A stretch of 48,144 bases of DNA from a virus: IMG/VR virus record IMGVR_UViG_3300031974_002798, positions 1 through 48,144 of that record; one strand, 5' to 3'. The notes beneath the pieces are model-generated. The model saw only the letters and a list, made by a program, of their open reading frames with translations. It was not told where the DNA came from and ran no database searches. Each line of letters opens with the position of its first letter. The first letter of the stretch is position 1. Positions 1-38,484 of this stretch are shown one piece after another. The position numbers and the translations under genes were made by a program.

Positions 1-57
1 CTATATATACTTTATCTTTATATATACTACTACTACTATTAGTATTAGCTATACTAC
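1..57. other. AT-rich simple-sequence intergenic stretch
   Basis: This short non-coding start of the window is made of TATATA and TAC/TAG triplet-like runs, for example ACTACTACTACTATTAGTA. No open frame or hairpin terminator is evident. It lies downstream of the first minus-strand gene and would be leader DNA of the next gene beyond the window edge. Confidence 0.5.
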
Positions 58-91
58 TATTATTTAGGTTATTTTATTCTACCTCACTTTT
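58..91 (-). repeat. 33-bp intergenic repeat, copy A
   Basis: This sequence recurs almost unchanged at 413..446. On the minus strand both copies read AAAAGTGAGGTAGAATAAAA, then TAA, (C/G)CTAAAT and (A/G)AT. In each copy the TGA near the start is the stop codon of the gene that ends there, and the remainder is leader DNA for the next gene. It is probably a shared expression or processing element. Confidence 0.7.
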
Positions 92-413
92 TTTTGAAAT
101 CCACTATCCGAGCTATTCGGTTCTTTATCATTCGGCGTTCTGATTTGTTTAATTGAACATTATCAACTACCCATTCTAAATACGATTGTGGTGCTTTAGT
201 AATATGTGTATCTTTATACTTACCTTTTCTAAAGTAACCACTTGCTACATCTATGAAATTATACTTAGGGTTTGGTTTCATTTTACCTTTTTTTGGCTTC
301 TTATTTTTATTAGTTATCTTATCAATATCTGATTGGATTTGTTCTTTTGTTTTACCTTTACGGCTACCTACCTTTACTAATACCTTATCTGTATTATATA
401 TCTTAGATATCAT
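84..413 (-). CDS. DUF3820-like small basic protein
   Basis: A 109-residue, strongly basic protein. The middle is a lysine-rich stretch (about residues 15-50). The C-terminal half has the pattern F-K-G-K-Y-K-D-T-x-I-x-x-A-P-x-S-Y-L-E-W, which resembles the DUF3820 motif (GKYKG...iP..YLeWl) also found at the C-end of exodeoxyribonuclease X-like proteins. That family is not biochemically defined; a nucleic-acid-binding role is only suggested by the charge. The start lies just after one copy of the 33-bp intergenic repeat and the stop is embedded in the other copy. Confidence 0.8.
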   Translation of the reverse strand: MISKIYNTDKVLVKVGSRKGKTKEQIQSDIDKITNKNKKPKKGKMKPNPKYNFIDVASGYFRKGKYKDTHITKAPQSYLEWVVDNVQLNKSERRMIKNRIARIVDFKKK

Positions 414-446
414 ATCATTTAGCTTATTTTATTCTACCTCACTTTT
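413..446 (-). repeat. 33-bp intergenic repeat, copy B
   Basis: Second copy of the element at 58..91, with only three mismatches. It contains the stop codon of the gene at 439..879 and ends at the ATG of the gene at 84..413, so it occupies the whole intergenic space. Confidence 0.7.
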
Positions 447-879
447 GTTCATTCACCACAATCCCATCATCCGGAGAAATGAAGTGCTCATATGGACGAG
501 CGATCGCATCATCCGGAGAAATGAAGTGCTCATCATAATGATACCCATTTATACTATTACTATTAGTCTCTGCATCTGTGGTTGTGGACATACGAGGAAT
601 CTCTGCGCATGGATTATAGTTATCACCATTAACTTTGAGTTCGAATGCCATTCTAAGAACCTCTGCTATGTGAATGGGTATACGGAATGTACCTATGTCT
701 TTACTCTCCAAACCTATCTGAGAATGGTGACTTCCTCTATAGTCAATTGATACCCAAATTATAGTTGAATATCTTCTTCCTCTTCTTATACGGATTGTGT
801 ATTCATCAACTACTATTGTGTCACCAATCCATTGGGTTAATACATCCCACATTCTTTGGGTTAGTTTCTTATCCTTCAT
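439..879 (-). CDS. Hypothetical protein with duplicated C-terminal motif
   Basis: 146 residues, not recognised. The N-terminal two thirds look like a folded alpha/beta domain. The C-terminus carries two copies of the peptide YxEHFISPDD, 14 residues apart, encoded by a perfect 27-bp direct repeat (465..491 and 507..533). The start overlaps the TGA of the upstream gene as ATGA and follows an exact copy of the ACCAAAACAAAG leader. Expression is therefore probably translationally coupled to the upstream gene. Confidence 0.8.
   Translation of the reverse strand: MKDKKLTQRMWDVLTQWIGDTIVVDEYTIRIRRGRRYSTIIWVSIDYRGSHHSQIGLESKDIGTFRIPIHIAEVLRMAFELKVNGDNYNPCAEIPRMSTTTDAETNSNSINGYHYDEHFISPDDAIARPYEHFISPDDGIVVNEQK
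465..533 (-). repeat. 27-bp direct repeat inside a gene (42-nt period)
   Basis: The sequence CATCATCCGGAGAAATGAAG and the following TGCTCAT occurs at 465..491 and again, identically, at 507..533. The 42-nt spacing keeps the reading frame, so the gene at 439..879 gains a second EHFISPDD peptide. The lack of any mismatch suggests a recent duplication or gene conversion. Confidence 0.85.
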
Positions 880-1115
880 CTTTGTTTTGGTTTAAATTCA
901 TCATAAAAACAAGCTTCCCGATCATCAATAATGTCACCCACATTGTGTTCTTTCCACCAAGATTTTGTTGTAGTATCCTCTAGTTTAATTTTACCTTCAA
1001 AAATACCTACATCGTCATATAAATGTTCAACATACAAACATTCTGTACCTTCAATAAACCAAGTGTCTTTTTTCGCAATATAGTATTGCCCTTCTATGAA
1101 ATCTTCTCTACTCAT
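876..1115 (-). CDS. Hypothetical small protein
   Basis: 79 residues, not recognised; rich in aromatic and acidic residues (WWKEHN, YFDE-like). It begins MSREDFIEGQYYI. The last residues, FKPKQR, are dictated by the ACCAAAACAAAG leader of the next gene, because the reading frame runs through that element to a TGA that overlaps the next ATG. It is a member of the tightly packed small-gene series between 0.4 and 4 kb. Confidence 0.8.
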   Translation of the reverse strand: MSREDFIEGQYYIAKKDTWFIEGTECLYVEHLYDDVGIFEGKIKLEDTTTKSWWKEHNVGDIIDDREACFYDEFKPKQR

Positions 1116-1273
1116 CTTTGTTTTGTATACGAAACAACTCGTTTATTTCTTACATCTATTGTTGAAACACCAATAGGACTGTTATAGTTAAAATAGAAAG
1201 TATTACCTTCTCTATAAGCGTTGTAAGTTACAGTTAACGGGCCTTCCATTACTTCTATAATATACTTACTCAT
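1112..1273 (-). CDS. Hypothetical 53-aa protein
   Basis: A 53-residue frame starting MSKYIIEVMEGPLTVTYNA and ending RVVSYTKQR. It fills the gap between its neighbours exactly, with ATGA overlaps at both ends and the CAAAGATG leader in front of its start. This placement is the main evidence that it is real. The product looks like a small beta-rich domain; no family is recognised. Confidence 0.75.
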   Translation of the reverse strand: MSKYIIEVMEGPLTVTYNAYREGNTFYFNYNSPIGVSTIDVRNKRVVSYTKQR

Positions 1274-1464
1274 CTTTGTTTTGATTTATATGATTTTAAT
1301 GCTTTTGATGCTGTATCAAAATGTTTCTGGGCATCATTAAGATGTTTCTGGGCTGTATCAAAATGTTTCTGGGCTTTATATAAATGATATTGAGCATATC
1401 CTAGTGCAAGAATACTCCCAACACCACATGTTATCATTATAATGTATAATATTTCTTCACTCAT
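1270..1464 (-). CDS. Single-pass membrane protein with heptad repeats
   Basis: 64 residues. Residues about 5-27 form one hydrophobic helix (ILYIIMITCGVGSILALGY). The rest is a run of seven-residue units of the form AQKHFDT/AQKHLND/AQKHFDT, predicting an amphipathic helix or coiled coil next to the membrane. The DNA repeats with a 21-nt period around 1318..1375. Role unknown; a membrane-anchored oligomer is the simplest reading. The start overlaps the TGA of the upstream gene and has the exact leader element. Confidence 0.8.
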   Translation of the reverse strand: MSEEILYIIMITCGVGSILALGYAQYHLYKAQKHFDTAQKHLNDAQKHFDTASKALKSYKSKQR

Positions 1465-2051
1465 CTTTGTTTTGGTTTATTTAGTTCACTAGAGATAGCC
1501 AAATTTGTAGCCTTTTTATCTATTTGTTTTACCACATCCCAATTTAAAACCATACATTGTTTATATCCTTCTATCATATACTGTGTAGGTACAGTTAGAC
1601 TACTCATCATTACATTGGCCAAAGATAGTACATCCAAATCATCTTTAGAAAACCAATTCAATACTTGCTCTTTAGATGAGAATGCAAAGTAAAAATATTT
1701 AAAGGGTATGTACTTTCCTATACGTTTCTTTATATTTTGTTGGAAGGTATTGTAATTAGCTCTCAACAACCCATCTTCAGCCCATCCAGGCCTCGTTGCT
1801 TTACTTAATGTTGGACAGTATTTAGCACCTTTCTTAATTACATCTCTATATTTGATATACTGAGGTATCTCATAATATGGTTCTCTGTATAATAGAGTTT
1901 GATTAATCATATTTTTTAGAGATACACCAGTACTATCAAATCGATTAATGTTTAGTCCTTTATCAGAATAATCATCATCTTTTATACGGTAAGGCCCTCT
2001 ATAAAAATCATCTTTCATATGAACTCTCCAAATACGTTTTTGGTTATTCAT
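1461..2051 (-). CDS. Hypothetical 196-aa phage protein
   Basis: 196 residues. It starts MNNQKRIWRVHMKDDFYRGPYR and has a segment FYFAFSSKEQVLNWF followed by an L-rich helix. A similar layout (x-GPYR- near the N-terminus, then FxF-S-EQ-x-x-WF) occurs in uncharacterised phage proteins, so I call it a conserved phage protein without a function. It ends in KPKQR because of the next gene's leader. It overlaps the upstream gene by 8 nt. Confidence 0.8.
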   Translation of the reverse strand: MNNQKRIWRVHMKDDFYRGPYRIKDDDYSDKGLNINRFDSTGVSLKNMINQTLLYREPYYEIPQYIKYRDVIKKGAKYCPTLSKATRPGWAEDGLLRANYNTFQQNIKKRIGKYIPFKYFYFAFSSKEQVLNWFSKDDLDVLSLANVMMSSLTVPTQYMIEGYKQCMVLNWDVVKQIDKKATNLAISSELNKPKQR

Positions 2052-2244
2052 CTTTGTTTTGGTGTTTAATATCCAACACCCATTCCATTAAATCAATCAT
2101 ACTACATTGTTGATTGAATTGTTCTATTTTTTCAGATATACCCCGCGAAGCTCCATTTGGTGGGTTATTTAAGAAATGAACTAATTCATCCTTGTGTTTA
2201 TTCATTTCTATTAACTTGTTATATATTTCTTCTCTACTTTTCAT
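2044..2244 (-). CDS. Hypothetical helical protein
   Basis: 66 residues, mainly helical and charged (MKSREEIYNKLIEMNKHKDE). The pattern resembles small phage proteins of unknown function with a conserved end-of-helix WVLDI. The C-terminus HQNKDE comes from the leader element being read in the second frame, ending at TAA 8 nt inside the next gene. Confidence 0.8.
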   Translation of the reverse strand: MKSREEIYNKLIEMNKHKDELVHFLNNPPNGASRGISEKIEQFNQQCSMIDLMEWVLDIKHQNKDE

Positions 2245-2609
2245 CTTTGTTTGGTGTAAGGGGTTTCAAAGTAGATTTCATTTCCATTGGAATCATACTT
2301 TCTTTTCACCCAATAATCATAACAGTAACCGTGGGTTTCATAGTAAATACAATTTCCATTGGAATCGTATTCTCTTTTAATATAGTTCCCGCTATTGTAT
2401 TCGGTGTAGATTTCCTTTCCATTGGAATCATATTCTGTTTTAAACGAAAACCCATTAGAGTTTTCACAATAGGCTATTCTTCCTTTGGAATCACGTTCAT
2501 ATCTACTCCATTCTCTATTAGAGTCTTCACGGTAAATACAATTTCCATTCTTATCTTTGATTCTAAATGGAAACTCTTTGATGTGAAGTTGTTGTGCTAT
2601 TGTACTCAT
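2241..2609 (-). CDS. DSNG-repeat protein, paralogue 1
   Basis: 122 residues. The N-terminal cap MSTIAQQLHIKEFPFRIKD is followed by about five units of roughly 20 residues with the core YDSNGNxIYYE, similar to YD- or MORN-like beta repeats. It is the longest of three paralogues here (others at 5141..5509 and 13115..13357) and lacks their common C-terminal cap (DKRPKGCEGKV...KLTEV), ending instead in YTKQR. Repeat number differs between paralogues, suggesting expansion or contraction by recombination at the identical TTTCCATTGGAATC DNA units. Function unknown. Confidence 0.85.
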   Translation of the reverse strand: MSTIAQQLHIKEFPFRIKDKNGNCIYREDSNREWSRYERDSKGRIAYCENSNGFSFKTEYDSNGKEIYTEYNSGNYIKREYDSNGNCIYYETHGYCYDYWVKRKYDSNGNEIYFETPYTKQR

Positions 2610-2989
2610 CTTTGTTTACTAAAGTTAGTTAACAATCCATTTATGTTATCTCCTCCAACAGGATTTGCTGATTGAATGTTGTATTTAGGTAAGGATTTGT
2701 TGTTGTCTATACAATAGTTCACCAACCATTTGGCACAATCAAATCCTGTCTTAGCATACTCAATAGTACACTCCAATGGTTTCATTGGGTCACCATTCAT
2801 TATATCAGGTTCCAAATCATGGTCAAAACAGATAGCAGTTGGCAATCCATTTTGCTCAATCCAATCTACAAATTCATTGTAGTTCTTCACCCATATAGTT
2901 TCAAAAGGTTTTTCAATAGGAGAATAGTCCAACCAATTTTCTGTGTTTGGATTTCTAATATCGTCTAACCAAAGGAGTGTCTTACTCAT
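2606..2989 (-). CDS. Cyclic-phosphate-processing-type receiver (cREC-like) protein
   Basis: 127 residues. The N-terminus LLWLDDIRNP, the central AICFDHDLE and the later KTGFDCAKWL and PKYNIQSANPVG patterns match small receiver-fold proteins of the cREC type, described as cyclic-phosphate-processing receiver domains in phage and defence-linked contexts. The paired acidic residues (D9, D10 and the FDHD motif) would bind metal. Substrate is unknown; nucleotide or RNA cyclic-phosphate chemistry is only inferred from the family name. It sits in the small-gene operon with ATGA overlaps. Confidence 0.75.
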   Translation of the reverse strand: MSKTLLWLDDIRNPNTENWLDYSPIEKPFETIWVKNYNEFVDWIEQNGLPTAICFDHDLEPDIMNGDPMKPLECTIEYAKTGFDCAKWLVNYCIDNNKSLPKYNIQSANPVGGDNINGLLTNFSKQR

Positions 2990-3203
2990 CTTTGTTTTGG
3001 TTTAACTTGTCTATTTCACCAACTAATCCTTTTAAAGAATCTTTCAAATTACCAAAACTTTCACTCTCTAGTAATTTAATTTTTTCCTCATCTGATAATT
3101 TGAAAACTTCTTTTTTTAAATCATTGATTCCAAAATCGATTTTATCACTCAAAGACACTGCCTGGTCTAAAAGTTCTTGTGTACTTGGTTTTTCTTTATT
3201 CAT
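2982..3203 (-). CDS. Hypothetical coiled-coil protein
   Basis: 73 residues, nearly all helix-forming with regularly spaced leucines (about residues 10-70), so a short coiled coil is likely. Ends NQNKDE through the next gene's leader element. The ATG is preceded by ACCAAAACAAAA, a one-base variant of the recurring leader. No family recognised. Confidence 0.75.
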   Translation of the reverse strand: MNKEKPSTQELLDQAVSLSDKIDFGINDLKKEVFKLSDEEKIKLLESESFGNLKDSLKGLVGEIDKLNQNKDE

Positions 3204-3215
3204 TTTTGTTTTGGT

Positions 3216-3575
3216 TTAATATTCTACATATCCACAAAAAATATATGTGAATGGGTTTTTAATTAACACCCATATTCTTTTCCATAATGGATAGTTTGAT
3301 TTTATTTTAATTGACGGTATTTTCTTTTTAATCATCTTTTTTTTGGGTACATCCTTAACATTATCATATTCAAGTTCACTACGCAGTTCCAAATATCGTT
3401 TACCTTTCTTAATGTCTCTATTAAAAGATGTAATAAAGTAGTTATCGATATTCTTCATCACTTTATCAACATTAGGATGTGTTTGTAAATTTTCTCTATC
3501 CTTTATTGTCATACCATCAACATAAACAATATCGGAATCCAATATCATTCTAAATATTGTATTTTCGGGTTTCAT
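3216..3575 (-). CDS. Hypothetical protein with hydrophobic C-terminus
   Basis: 119 residues, not recognised. The first two thirds are charged, with a lysine cluster (KKKMIKKKIPS), and the last 25 residues are hydrophobic and aromatic (WKRIWVLIKNPFTYIFCGY), suggesting membrane association through the C-terminal tail. Its start is 9 nt downstream of a CAAAGAT element that here is followed by AAGTT before the ATG. Confidence 0.75.
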   Translation of the reverse strand: MKPENTIFRMILDSDIVYVDGMTIKDRENLQTHPNVDKVMKNIDNYFITSFNRDIKKGKRYLELRSELEYDNVKDVPKKKMIKKKIPSIKIKSNYPLWKRIWVLIKNPFTYIFCGYVEY

Positions 3576-3760
3576 AACTTATCTTTGTTTTGGTTTATTT
3601 CTTTGAGCTCAAATATTTTACAATCTTCAATATTACAACCCTTTAACGTTTCTTCTTTCCATTTTAACATTCTATTTATGTTAGTTGAAATGTTATAACC
3701 TATGGTAAAGTCATCGTTTCTTTCCTCGTGAATCAGTCCTATGTATCTTTTTTTACTCAT
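3572..3760 (-). CDS. Hypothetical 62-aa protein
   Basis: 62 residues starting MSKKRYIGLIHEERNDDFT. A longer in-frame start exists at 3868, but it would overlap the upstream gene by about 115 nt. The start at 3760 follows the recurring AAAAACAAAG leader directly and gives the usual short overlap, so I chose it. Ends NQNKDKL, again from the leader element of the following gene. Function unknown. Confidence 0.75.
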   Translation of the reverse strand: MSKKRYIGLIHEERNDDFTIGYNISTNINRMLKWKEETLKGCNIEDCKIFELKEINQNKDKL

Positions 3761-3905
3761 CTTTGTTTTTAAATACCATTTCAATCTTACTACTACTTCT
3801 ACTAAATGCCTCAAATGGCAATTTACTGAATATGGACTTATTGTGTACCTCTCTTTGGGTTTGTTCATCCATACTTCTCCACCACTCTAATGCTTTCTCT
3901 CTCAT
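3753..3905 (-). CDS. Hypothetical 50-aa protein
   Basis: 50 residues starting MREKALEWWRSMDEQTQ, with a hydrophobic KLPFEAFSRSS stretch. The ALEWW motif followed by a short linker recurs in small phage proteins of unknown role. A longer frame from 4055 exists, but its extra N-terminus is antisense-like methionine- and histidine-rich sequence inside the upstream gene, so it is rejected. One nt separates it from the upstream stop. Confidence 0.7.
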   Translation of the reverse strand: MREKALEWWRSMDEQTQREVHNKSIFSKLPFEAFSRSSSKIEMVFKNKDE

Positions 3906-3906
3906 C

Positions 3907-4152
3907 TTAATAGTGTTTAAAATATCCATCATTCCACAATCTGTGGACTTCTCTTTGTATCTTATCCTCTGATTCACCATTGAATGTTGCCCAATATGGG
4001 AATGGGCCATTTGTTTCATAATAGAACAATACATCATCATACTTAGTGTTTTCATTCACTCTGAATGAGAATGGTTGTCCATCAATGGTTATATCATAAT
4101 GTCGTACCTCTTCTTTCCACAGCACTTTCTTTTCACAGAGTTGTACCATCAT
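3907..4152 (-). CDS. Hypothetical 81-aa protein
   Basis: 81 residues (MMVQLCEKKVLWKEEVRHY...), apparently a small beta-rich domain with several aromatic residues. It lies between two very short genes with ATGA or 1-nt junctions. Not recognised. Confidence 0.75.
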   Translation of the reverse strand: MMVQLCEKKVLWKEEVRHYDITIDGQPFSFRVNENTKYDDVLFYYETNGPFPYWATFNGESEDKIQREVHRLWNDGYFKHY

Positions 4153-4241
4153 TTTTTATTCATCATTTTTAGGAAACTTCCCAATATAATGACAGACAGA
4201 ATTCCTATCACTACCCCATATGCTAATGCTTCAAAATTCAT
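4149..4241 (-). CDS. Tiny single-pass membrane protein
   Basis: 30 residues. MNFEALAYGVVIGILSVIIL plus GSFLKMMNKK forms one transmembrane helix with a basic cytoplasmic tail. The TGA overlaps the ATG of the gene at 3907..4152 as ATGA, which supports it as a true gene despite its size. Role unknown. Confidence 0.65.
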   Translation of the reverse strand: MNFEALAYGVVIGILSVIILGSFLKMMNKK

Positions 4242-4248
4242 ATGTAAA

Positions 4249-4383
4249 TTACTTCAACTGTTTATACAATATTCCAACACCACTTTGTTCCACAACATAA
4301 AGCCCACCTTGGTAAACACCAGTATTAAAACTGATTTGTTTAAAACCTGACCGCTTCATTATCATTGGGATTCTTACTTTCAT
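4249..4383 (-). CDS. Hypothetical 44-aa basic protein
   Basis: 44 residues starting MKVRIPMIMKRSGFKQISF and ending VGILYKQLK. It begins behind the leader ACAAAAAATAAAGGTT, close to the leader of the gene at 4453..4614, and lies 23 nt downstream of a predicted promoter. No family recognised. Confidence 0.65.
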   Translation of the reverse strand: MKVRIPMIMKRSGFKQISFNTGVYQGGLYVVEQSGVGILYKQLK

Positions 4384-4406
4384 AACCTTTATTTTTTGTT
4401 ACAATC

Positions 4407-4438
4407 TGAATATACGAAATATATTTCACATATCCAAA
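4407..4438 (-). promoter_or_regulatory. Bacteroidetes-type promoter for 4249..4383
   Basis: Minus-strand TTTG (4435..4438), a 20-nt spacer and TATATTCA (4407..4414). The element sits in a true gap between two genes that otherwise abut, and has the same spacing as eleven others in the window. Confidence 0.6.
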
Positions 4439-4452
4439 TCTTTTGATGGATT

Positions 4453-4614
4453 TTAATTTTGTTCTAACCAAAGTTCACGTTCATCATGAGCAATGTTTGA
4501 TTTCAATTCCAAATACTCTGATTTAGTGATACATATCTCCTTATTAAAGGAGTTTAAGACGATTACACATTCATCTCCTGTTATACCGCAAGTAAACTCT
4601 TTAACTACTTTCAT
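4453..4614 (-). CDS. Hypothetical 53-aa protein
   Basis: 53 residues starting MKVVKEFTCGITGDECVIV; two cysteines and a short beta-hairpin-like N-terminal half, then a helical C-terminal half (SEYLELKSNIAHDERELW). It fills the gap upstream of a promoter and has an AACAAAAAACAAAGGTT leader. Function unknown. Confidence 0.65.
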   Translation of the reverse strand: MKVVKEFTCGITGDECVIVLNSFNKEICITKSEYLELKSNIAHDERELWLEQN

Positions 4615-4632
4615 AACCTTTGTTTTTTGTTA

Positions 4633-4812
4633 CTATACATCAATGGGTAATCCTTCTTTCTTCAACTCTTCGTACATCTCCCTTGCGATGGATATACACC
4701 ACTTAGGGTCAGCACCCTTCACCACATTGTTTGTTGATGATCGGAGTGCATGAATCTTTTGAGCATGTTTGGATATAAACTTATCCTTATACAATATATC
4801 TGTTACATCCAT
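4633..4812 (-). CDS. Hypothetical 59-aa protein
   Basis: 59 residues starting MDVTDILYKDKFISKHAQK. The C-terminal half, DPKWCISIAREMYEELKKEG, is helical and resembles the tail of small phage helical proteins. Two nt separate its start from the upstream stop. Not recognised. Confidence 0.7.
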   Translation of the reverse strand: MDVTDILYKDKFISKHAQKIHALRSSTNNVVKGADPKWCISIAREMYEELKKEGLPIDV

Positions 4813-4814
4813 AT

Positions 4815-5144
4815 CTATTGGGGGTTATCAAGCTGAACTAACAATTGTGTTATTACCTCATCAACAATATCTTTTTGTTGCTTAACAACTTCATGTCTTT
4901 CCTTTAAAGGATATGTATAATCACCTATGAATTCTGACCAGGCTTTTTCCTGTCCTTTTTTCACTTGGTATTCAACATCTAGTTGTTCAGTATCAATGTT
5001 CCACGAACTTTTTTTAACGATTTTATCTTCTGTTCGCAATTCAATGTCTATGAGTTCTGTATCAAGATCCCACGACAATCTGTCAAGACTTTTAAATAAA
5101 TTCTCTGCAGCGTTTTCGTCTAGTTCAATGGTAAACTTTTTCAT
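4815..5144 (-). CDS. Hypothetical acidic protein with internal repeat
   Basis: 109 residues, acidic. Two similar segments, LSWDLDTELIDIEL (about 22-35) and SSWNIDTEQLDVEY (about 46-59), suggest an internal duplication of a beta strand pair. The C-terminal half is helical. The start shares ATGA with the stop of the upstream DSNG-repeat gene. No family recognised. Confidence 0.75.
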   Translation of the reverse strand: MKKFTIELDENAAENLFKSLDRLSWDLDTELIDIELRTEDKIVKKSSWNIDTEQLDVEYQVKKGQEKAWSEFIGDYTYPLKERHEVVKQQKDIVDEVITQLLVQLDNPQ

Positions 5145-5509
5145 ACCTCTGTTAGTTTGTATTTCTTTCCATCAATCTCTACTACCTTTCCTTCACAACC
5201 TTTTGGTCTTTTGTCTATAATGTACCCATCAGAGTTTTCATAGTAGATTTCCTTTCCATTGGAATCGTATTCTCTTTTATACCACCATCCATTGCGGTCT
5301 TCGCAGTAGATTTCATTTCCATTGGAATTGTATTCATATTTCTCCCAATACCCATTACAGTTTTCATAGTAGATATTATTTCCATTGGAATCGTATTCTC
5401 TTTTATACCCCCAGCCATCAGAGTCTTCATAGTAGATTACATTTCCATTCTCATCTTTAATTATAAATGGAAATTCTTTGATATTAAGCTGCTGTGCTAT
5501 TGTTTTCAT
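5141..5509 (-). CDS. DSNG-repeat protein, paralogue 2
   Basis: 122 residues: N-terminal cap MKTIAQQLNIKEFPFIIKDE, four units of about 20 residues around YDSNGNxIYYE, then the C-terminal cap DKRPKGCEGKVVEIDGKKYK with LTEV. The caps are almost identical to those of 13115..13357, which has only two units. The repeat DNA contains multiple near-identical TTTCCATTGGAATCGTATTC blocks. Function unknown; repeated aromatic beta hairpins could form an extended or binding surface. Confidence 0.85.
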   Translation of the reverse strand: MKTIAQQLNIKEFPFIIKDENGNVIYYEDSDGWGYKREYDSNGNNIYYENCNGYWEKYEYNSNGNEIYCEDRNGWWYKREYDSNGKEIYYENSDGYIIDKRPKGCEGKVVEIDGKKYKLTEV

Positions 5510-5515
5510 TTGTCT

Positions 5516-5773
5516 TTATGTTAAGAATTTAATGTCCTTTATCCTATCCATTATCTGTTGACGATATTGATATTCTACATCACTATCAATCCAAAGATGG
5601 TAATCACCACCAATCATACCAGGAGAATCATCATGCTCACAATACCCCTCAGTAAATCCCAAATTGTCCTTATTGAGTAAATCAAAGATTTTGGTGTATC
5701 TACCATTGTAGGGCCAATATCGGCCCTTATCTTTATGGTTCTTTATGATGAGTTTTGTAATGTACTCACTCAT
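5516..5773 (-). CDS. Hypothetical 85-aa protein
   Basis: 85 residues starting MSEYITKLIIKNHKDKGRYW, with a central GFTEGYCEHDDSPGMIGGDYHLWI segment rich in D, H and G. Not recognised. Overlaps the upstream gene by 4 nt. Confidence 0.75.
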   Translation of the reverse strand: MSEYITKLIIKNHKDKGRYWPYNGRYTKIFDLLNKDNLGFTEGYCEHDDSPGMIGGDYHLWIDSDVEYQYRQQIMDRIKDIKFLT

Positions 5774-6051
5774 CGTTCAACGATTCCAAGAAAACCATTT
5801 GGGAAGCCTGTTTTGAGTTGACCCCACAGCATCACCTCATCAATCAGACAATCAATGTAATCTTTGACGAGAAAAGTTGTATCAGAAGAACCGAACCCTT
5901 CATCGGGGCTCTGATTCAAAGTCCATTGTTCAGCCACTCCTTTTGCCGTTAGGAGAACATCAACCTTATCTAAAAAGGGTTTGATTTTGTCATAACCATT
6001 GACAGTTTCAGCGATTTTGACAATTGTTTTGGGGTTTACTATGTAGTTCAT
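5770..6051 (-). CDS. Hypothetical 93-aa protein
   Basis: I start this gene at the ATG at 6051 (MNYIVNPKTIVKI) rather than the in-frame ATG at 6060. The sequence before it, AATGAGAGATATGAA, is shared with the gene at 7134..7253, and the 6051 start gives the same 19-nt distance from the promoter. The product is helical with WTLNQSPDEGFGSSD in the middle. Function unknown. Confidence 0.75.
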   Translation of the reverse strand: MNYIVNPKTIVKIAETVNGYDKIKPFLDKVDVLLTAKGVAEQWTLNQSPDEGFGSSDTTFLVKDYIDCLIDEVMLWGQLKTGFPNGFLGIVER

Positions 6052-6070
6052 ATCTCTCATTGTTACAGTA

Positions 6071-6102
6071 CTAATATAGTGATAATGTCTGAAACTACCA
6101 AA
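6071..6102 (-). promoter_or_regulatory. Bacteroidetes-type promoter for 5770..6051
   Basis: Minus-strand TTTG (6099..6102), 20-nt spacer, TATATTAG (6071..6078). Almost identical, including spacer sequence, to the element at 14975..15006. Confidence 0.7.
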
Positions 6103-6138
6103 CTTTGAATGTTAAATTTTATATATAAAGTGTTAAAT

Positions 6139-6345
6139 TTATTCATCAATCTCTTCTCCAATCACATCATTCCACTCCGAATCCAAAATTCCTGTGATGA
6201 TGAACTCTCTTTCAGATGGGGTTAGTTGTGGAAATGCATCTTGAACTAATGTACCAGAATACCAATCAGCCATCTGTTCATCGGTAATATTCAAATCCAA
6301 AGTGTTGACATTACCACTAATCGGTGATTTGCGTGTTATCTTCAT
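6139..6345 (-). CDS. Conserved small phage protein
   Basis: 68 residues, beginning MKITRKSPISGNVNTLDLN. The layout (RKSxxSGxxxTLDLxxT-x-EQ-x-x-WYxGxLxQDAFPxL-x-x-x-EREFIxTGIxxxEW) is one I recognise from uncharacterised small phage proteins in diverse hosts. No biochemical function is known to me. Overlaps the upstream gene by 4 nt. Confidence 0.85.
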   Translation of the reverse strand: MKITRKSPISGNVNTLDLNITDEQMADWYSGTLVQDAFPQLTPSEREFIITGILDSEWNDVIGEEIDE

Positions 6346-37752: not shown

Positions 37753-38484
37753 TCAACCATTTTTACACAATTCTCTTCTGTGTCTCCATCCACCAAGATT
37801 TCCGTGGTTTACACTAACAAATCCATTAATATACAACTTAGCACCACGCTTAATATGGTCTAATTGAAATCTTTCATTCCCGCCCCAAGGTGGTGTATCT
37901 GAATGGCAAAATCTTCCATTATTATTATACTTTTCATAATATAATCGATGAAATGCAAATAACCAAACATGCATTCCACCATAAACTGGATGTTTATTAG
38001 TCACATCATGTATTTTATTTGGACTGACTTTATGTTGTCCAGTACCAATATTTCTTACTCCGAACAAAGAATTTTCTAAATCCATATCCTCAATAGAATT
38101 GAACAGATTATTGATGGACTTATCAAATACAATGTCATCATTACAAACAATGATAAAATCATTTCCGTTTAAATATCCAAATTGACTACAAAAATTCCAT
38201 GCACCAGTAAGTCCTAATCTATCATCTTTCAACGAAATGTAATTATGTGTAAGTGCGATTGGTATTGTATCTACAATAGTTTCAGATGCGTTATCTAATA
38301 TCAATGTATCGTAATCAAACTCTACCGAATCTTTTAATGAAGACAAACACCTATGTAATAAATCTCTACCTTCAGCTCTACCCCTTCGATTCTTACCATC
38401 CCTATTTTTTACAAAAACTTCATCATCATGTTCTTTTCTATAGTGATTTACTATAGCGAATAATGGTTTATTAATTTTACTCAT
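37753..38484 (-). CDS. Family 2 glycosyltransferase-like protein
   Basis: 243 residues. LILDNASETIVD, LGLTGAWNFCSQ and FIIVCNDDIVFD (CNDDI as the DxD-like site) have the GT2 pattern, and the C-terminal NERFQLDHIKRGA fits. Overlaps the upstream gene by 4 nt. Confidence 0.8.
   Translation of the reverse strand: MSKINKPLFAIVNHYRKEHDDEVFVKNRDGKNRRGRAEGRDLLHRCLSSLKDSVEFDYDTLILDNASETIVDTIPIALTHNYISLKDDRLGLTGAWNFCSQFGYLNGNDFIIVCNDDIVFDKSINNLFNSIEDMDLENSLFGVRNIGTGQHKVSPNKIHDVTNKHPVYGGMHVWLFAFHRLYYEKYNNNGRFCHSDTPPWGGNERFQLDHIKRGAKLYINGFVSVNHGNLGGWRHRRELCKNG

Follow-up and report, generated by a model that had tools for sequence, protein, structure and literature searches.

A repeated start-adjacent sequence in uncultured phages as a candidate Shine-Dalgarno-free translation leader and junction of accessory gene cassettes

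The question raised by the locus described here is why a series of small phage genes with unrelated products should begin behind one and the same short sequence, which is also read as the last codons of the gene upstream. The locus lies in the IMG/VR record IMGVR_UViG_3300031974_002798 (G000), a 48-kb fragment of an uncultured virus whose full stretch of 48,144 nucleotides is called the window, and in which the convincing genes were found nearly all on the minus strand. The sequence, called the element or the leader below, is best read, with a rough probability of two in three, as a translation-start leader that would function without a Shine-Dalgarno (SD) sequence, would be coupled to termination of the upstream gene and would also provide short homology for the swapping of accessory gene cassettes.

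The initial annotation had named nine starts preceded by CAAAG-ATG (879, 1115, 1273, 1464, 2051, 2244, 2609, 2989 and 3760), and all nine, located on the minus strand, were found to contain CAAAG immediately before the ATG. The full motif ACCAAAACAAAGATG, claimed for several of them, was found as an exact 15-mer at four starts (879, 1464, 2051 and 2989) and with 1-3 mismatches at 1273, 3203, 1115, 2244 and 3760. Among the variants proposed at three further starts, those at 3203 (1 mismatch) and 3575 (intact core followed by ATA) held, whereas 4614, like 4383, was found to be preceded by a related but different leader, AAAAAAYAAAGGTT-ATG. The copies and the array that they join are as follows.

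876-3760, minus strand: small accessory gene cassettes in an array, joined by the element; homologues stand beside leaders in other phages.
877-895, minus strand: element copy, exact 15-mer, comprising the TTTAAACCAAAACAAAG region and the ATG of gene 439-879; the upstream gene ends in KPKQR, with TGA in ATGA.
1113-1127, minus strand: element copy TACAAAACAAAGATG at the start of gene 876-1115; upstream tail TKQR.
1271-1288, minus strand: element copy TAA-ATCAAAACAAAG-ATG at the start of gene 1112-1273; upstream tail SKQR.
1462-1479, minus strand: exact element copy TAA-ACCAAAACAAAG-ATG-AGT at the start of gene 1270-1464; upstream tail KPKQR.
2044-2063, minus strand: exact element copy ACCAAAACAAAG-ATG-AATAA at the start of gene 1461-2051; the upstream gene ends in HQNKDE, with TAA at 2046-2044.
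2242-2256, minus strand: element copy CACCAAACAAAGATG at the start of gene 2044-2244; upstream tail TKQR.
2607-2621, minus strand: short element copy TAGTAAACAAAGATG at the start of gene 2241-2609; upstream tail SKQR.
2982-3004, minus strand: exact element copy TTAAACCAAAACAAAG-ATG-AGTAA at the start of gene 2606-2989, with the full consensus and stops in three frames; upstream tail NQNKDE.
3201-3218, minus strand: element copy TAA-ACCAAAACAAAA-ATG (1 mismatch) at the start of gene 2982-3203; its TAA ends gene 3216-3575.
3572-3597, minus strand: element copy TAA-ACCAAAACAAAG-ATA, in which the leader ATG is lost; gene 3216-3575 begins at the next ATG (3575).
3753-3772, minus strand: degenerate element copy TTTAAAAACAAAG-ATG-AGTAA at the start of gene 3572-3760; upstream tail KNKDE.
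4375-4405 (before start 4383), with a second copy at 4606-4636 (before start 4614), minus strand: different leader repeat GTAACAAAAAATAAAGGTT (family D11), possibly related and excluded from the element count.

A comparison with shuffled sequences, as the annotation had recommended, gave 21 matches in the window (up to 3 mismatches) against 4.9 +/- 2.1, a count reached by 0 of 100 shuffles, and the low-mismatch matches were concentrated in 877-3772. At positions -9 to -1 of the 215 ATG starts of open reading frames (ORFs) in the window, AAAACAAAG was the commonest 9-mer, with six copies against two for the next.

The same sequence was found far beyond the window. The exact 21-mer was present in at least 119 viral DNA stretches of IMG/VR against 3 for a control with its letters scrambled, and a scan with a 16-mer gave at least about 120 stretches, whereas 257 Gb of prokaryote genomes contained four matches, one of them (two copies) on an apparent phage contig. 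Arrays of 5-24 copies were found in many uncultured large phages; whole-record scans counted 21 in one record of 380 kb, 24 in another of 242 kb and 11-12 each in records of 210, 246, 126 and 61 kb. The copies of an array were located all or nearly all on one strand, and the pattern read backwards occurred 0-1 times per array-bearing record scanned against 1-24 times for the true pattern. The 9-mer at -9 to -1 was present in 6-17 copies against 2-4 for the runner-up in five genomes. These counts bear out the claim that conservation exceeds what A-richness alone requires. The annotation had suggested a search for the shared tails in other genes of the same phage; KQR and NKDE tails are indeed present, but that scope was too narrow, the element being common to many phages. 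The T4 capsid family Gp23 was found in 12 of 30 array-bearing and array-free records searched, and array phages with a capsid gene were mostly T4-like. Among cultured relatives, no array phage was found by megablast, short-query blastn or tblastn with three cassette proteins, the Flavobacterium LMO8 phages giving weak 41-mer matches. A literature search for the motif gave, among the matches listed, only unrelated sequence matches.

The consensus of 480 deduplicated copies from related phages (up to 1 mismatch) was (T)TAA-ACCAAAACAAAG-ATG-AGTAAA, the full element being TTAAACCAAAACAAAG-ATG-AGTAAA and its core 12 nt long. Starts were adjoined by 439 of the 480 copies (399 with ATG, 40 with AAG-ATG) in a sample selected in part for ATGA, and by 105 of the 135 one-mismatch copies that are free of that selection. 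A stop was found in every frame, namely TAA, which adds no tail, ATGA, which gives the tail KPKQR, and GAGTAA, which gives QNKDE; upstream ORFs ended in frames 0, 1 and 2 in 86, 90 and 186 cases, respectively. ATGA was present at 97% of leaders against 56% in the background, and likewise at 97% when counted per family (321 families), followed by a frame-2 stop at +6 in 64% against 16%. This third stop is formed by a second codon AGT together with AA, AG or GA. The second codon was AGT in 55% of the 321 families, and Ser2 was encoded by AGT in 240/245 cases at leaders against 80/150 in other genes. Stops left unused by the upstream gene were retained as well. These features support a genuine association of the element with gene starts, with a specificity greater than that of A-richness.

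Comparison of loci further showed a property that the annotation had missed: the element is a junction at which cassettes are exchanged. Among pairs of leaders, 198 had one flank related (at least 70% identity) and the other at random level and 14 had both related, a ratio that is not a rate, near-identical junctions having been removed before the comparison. BLAST homology ended at leaders in 186/337 and 176/342 cases against 38 and 41 expected (4-5x). In comparisons of dissimilar contigs, 96% of leader junctions were broken against 80% of the other gene junctions of the same loci, an imperfect comparison since the latter set includes wrongly predicted starts as well as leaders that have decayed. 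At -17 to -15, variants went with the upstream gene (93/122) rather than with the downstream one; at +5 to +12 they went with the downstream gene, and core variants went with neither, a pattern that places the linkage switch inside the element, within its core. One register with the following leader was kept by 99 of 106 families, as expected of exchange within the leader. Shared cassettes were found to connect 118 loci, the window included, into one network.

The sequence (T)TAAACCAAAACAAAG-ATG-AGTAA may thus be pictured as a multipurpose gene joint. First, it would act in the mRNA as a short, unstructured, SD-free ribosome start leader with A at -3, -6, -12 and -13. Secondly, it terminates an upstream ORF arriving in any frame, by a TAA before the leader, a TGA overlapping the ATG, or a TAA, TGA or TAG at +6; the stop-to-start distances are -15, +1 and +5, and with every stop within -15 to +8 of the start, translational coupling of each array gene to the next would be possible. 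Thirdly, the same sequence at nearly every array junction would offer short homology for phage recombination, by which cassettes could be swapped, added or removed between co-infecting phages with neither ORF broken. Exchange probably proceeds by general phage recombination or annealing at this short homology and not by a dedicated recombinase, because no promoter, terminator or Rfam element was evident and no tyrosine integrase was present in 18 array records.

The proposed translational role is consistent with several features of the starts. SD sequences, said by the annotation to be lacking from the element as expected of Bacteroidetes, were not enriched in the window (12.5% against 12.5% in the control), and the core ACCAAAACAAAG contains no AGGAGG-like site. 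Genome-wide SD frequency was near the control in G001, G002, G005 and the window, and most array phages had no SD sequence at their other starts. Adenines at -3, -6, -12 and -13 are positive determinants of initiation in Flavobacterium johnsoniae (PMC6847099), and the element was found to contain all four. It also has the low structure (folding at 0 kcal/mol) that, with these adenines, favours SD-free initiation in that Kozak-like context, but the F. johnsoniae context is a loose positional preference whereas the element is a fixed 12-mer copied across unrelated genes and phages. Pairing was also lower at leader starts (0.30) than at other starts (0.40). A role as enhancer or coupling signal, as first proposed, is plausible. 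In the PDB, the ribosomal protein bS21 of four array phages had no match other than the bS21 of F. johnsoniae and one further bS21 chain. These matches, together with the lack of SD sequences at most array-phage starts, suggest Bacteroidota hosts, not proven for the array phages nor for the window, which itself contains no bS21. As an observation apart, the bS21 of array phage G007 (L333, L334) matched only Flavobacterium-type chains in the PDB despite the SD-like starts of this phage.

Several findings weigh against the proposed dual role. A homology of 12-24 nt is short for exchange of the RecA/UvsX type. The non-leader junctions were often broken too, and the leader therefore enriches breaks and is not their sole determinant. 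In G007, SD-like sequence was found at 53% of starts (n=30), and the leader is thus not confined to SD-free phages. In the family of 3216-3575, the gene begins not at the leader ATG, which relatives L211 and L232 keep and which opens only a 7-codon ORF there, but at the ATG that follows. The records are metagenomic, and among pairs of alternative neighbours both arrangements were replicated in independent samples in only 3, and at least one in 26. Assembly chimeras are an unlikely source of these alternative neighbours, because 116 of the 198 shared flanks were less than 95% identical, which a chimera would not give, 38 junction types recurred across independent metagenomes, and the 3 pairs were replicated on both sides.

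The first alternative is that the element is purely a translation-start leader, conserved only for initiation and coupling, and that ordinary illegitimate recombination scrambles the gene order, with breaks seen at leaders only because recombinants survive at those gene boundaries. It is unlikely, although it would account for the Kozak-like adenines and for the frequent breakage of non-leader junctions, and it has a precedent in the Start-Associated Sequences (SAS and ESAS) of Cluster K mycobacteriophages (PMC3203893), for which a role in translation initiation was put forward. The SAS, as described there, is a 13-bp sequence, GGGATAGGAGCCC, with only one degenerate copy outside Cluster K, in Corndog. 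Like the SAS, the element is a short asymmetric repeat directly upstream of many starts and is rare in prokaryote genomes, the SAS being almost absent from hosts; its consensus TTAAACCAAAACAAAG is not that of the SAS, and three-frame stops and a shuffling role are not reported for the SAS in the available part of that source. Against a pure leader stand the excess of breaks at leader junctions, the linkage switch inside the core with both flanks intact, and the single register of the 99 families, which random joining and later selection would not give.

A dedicated site-specific cassette system, in which a recombinase encoded by phage or host would recognise the leader in an integron-like manner, is very unlikely. 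It would suit the precise junctions, the cassette arrays and the cassette pool common to unrelated phages; but the site is asymmetric, unstructured and short, tyrosine integrase was found in none of the 18 array-bearing records, some of them fragments, and serine recombinase in one of the 18. In integrons, small genes without promoters are arrayed with a common attC site between them and are reshuffled; the element likewise separates reshuffled arrays of small genes. It differs in that no integrase and no folded attC-like site were found (Rfam gave no match in 1-6200 of the window) and in that it also supplies the stop and start codons.

A transcription element, either a promoter or a leaderless start site, is less probable still. 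Constant spacing to the ATG would suit leaderless mRNA, but in 40 copies the ATG is displaced by 3 nt through an inserted AAG, many genes share 4 or 8 nt with a neighbour, and in 800-4700 neither promoter-like sites (24 against 23.8 in shuffles, with an E. coli-type, sigma-70-like consensus only) nor terminator-like sites (1 against 1.2) exceeded the shuffled sequence. The same counts bear on the promoter-early stem-loops (PeSLs) of T4-type phages (Arbiol et al. 2010 and Comeau et al. 2014, as cited in PMC4503421), which are described in the available part of that source as composite promoter-terminator motifs acting on transcription. Like a PeSL, the element is a short sequence repeated at the junctions of shuffled small accessory genes in T4-like phages, where PeSLs are thought to mediate cassette shuffling by homologous recombination. 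Unlike a PeSL, it shows neither an early promoter nor a stem-loop or terminator by the above counts and folding, and it is a putative translation joint of 12-24 nt fused to the ATG, with three-frame stops and mostly no intergenic gap, in other, probably Bacteroidota, phages. Neither PeSLs nor the SAS, which are its nearest known counterparts, are described as a three-frame stop-start joint in the available parts of the two sources.

The shared tails raise the converse possibility, that KPKQR and QNKDE have a function as peptides, for instance as tags for degradation or interaction, and that the DNA sequence follows from them. The tails are common to dozens of unrelated proteins. In the window, the genes stopping at 876, 1112, 1270, 1461, 2241 and 2606 were found to end in KQR and those stopping at 2044, 2982 and 3753 in NKDE, as annotated, and the third frame is used by the gene stopping at 3216, with a TAA directly ahead of the leader at 3215. 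That unrelated proteins acquire identical tails by reading through the element agrees with the exactness of the core: in the three upstream frames, 60, 59 and 60% of copies, respectively, had the core without mismatch. The constraint is thus on the nucleotide sequence and not on the peptide, since the core is equally conserved where the upstream gene has already stopped (frame 0) and in the other two frames, whose tails differ. Homologues with the same tail and no following gene, which would have spoken against read-through, were not seen for 2606-2989: its homologues L341 and L301, with no following leader, also have no KQR. The family of 2044-2244 has a tail that varies with the joint (HQNKDE, NQNKDEIY, NQNKDEKN or KYVKPKQR), and two more families (fam2 and fam7) were found to contain the same protein with both tails. 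Functional tails can hence hardly be maintained and were rejected on the equal conservation across frames and on the loss or change of tails in homologues; a by-product of the element is the supported reading.

Chance composition, an A-rich start context over-read as a motif in AT-rich, SD-free genomes whose starts are A-rich in general, was refuted by the shuffle, scramble and 9-mer counts given above.

The window was found to encode a T4-type clamp loader, GroEL and a tRNA nucleotidyltransferase-like gene, and its left end, 84-5773, is a series of small genes. The 169-kb relative G017 (L285-L293), the closest large one, is syntenic with much of the remaining window at mostly 60-92% identity, whereas the 17 predicted genes of 84-5773 had no tblastn match in it; the array is an accessory segment. 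The products of 876-1115, 2044-2244, 2982-3203, 3216-3575 and 3572-3760 have homologues that adjoin leaders in other phages. PADLOC found no defence genes, and the 196-aa protein had no close homologues among viral contigs.

Some further observations concern the array genes and other leader repeats. Gene 2606-2989, within the array, contains a cREC_REC (cyclic-phosphate processing receiver) domain (Pfam PF20274, E 5e-21). Genes 2241-2609 and 5141-5509 are paralogues made of EYDSNGNEIYYE-type repeats, of which only the former has the leader-written TKQR tail, the latter ending in KLTEV. A cassette of 35-46 aa (MSKEKLVGMICKKRLQTLEEN...) has nearly identical DNA across loci with varying neighbours (L226 at 4200-4340, L014, L034, L113, L264 and L266) and occurs once in a metagenome-assembled genome labelled Campylobacteraceae, on a phage-looking contig. 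The second leader repeat of the window, at 4375-4405 and 4606-4636, reads GTAACAAAAAAYAAAGGTT-ATGAAAGT. G017 was found to contain another start-adjacent repeat, TTTACTATGTAAAAGAGAGATAAGTT-ATG, in four copies (record positions 38367, 95782, 106604 and 107251), which may represent a separate cassette combining promoter and leader.

In the mosaic genomes of phages, the places where pieces join usually bear no visible mark. Here, the joint can be seen; it is short and present at hundreds of junctions in many phages, and the exchange of accessory genes with no ORF broken therefore becomes directly testable. The shared C-terminal tails KPKQR and QNKDE carry a warning that they are not to be taken for domains. 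The element offers a means to recognise arrays of unknown small genes, as well as a natural compact module of all-frame stops and a start for SD-free bacteria. More tentatively, it may point to an integron-like economy of cassettes, independent of a recombinase, among uncultured Bacteroidota phages, in which one short sequence would be selected both as translation joint and as universal exchange point, and in which the three-frame stops would be an adaptation that lets any gene follow any other.

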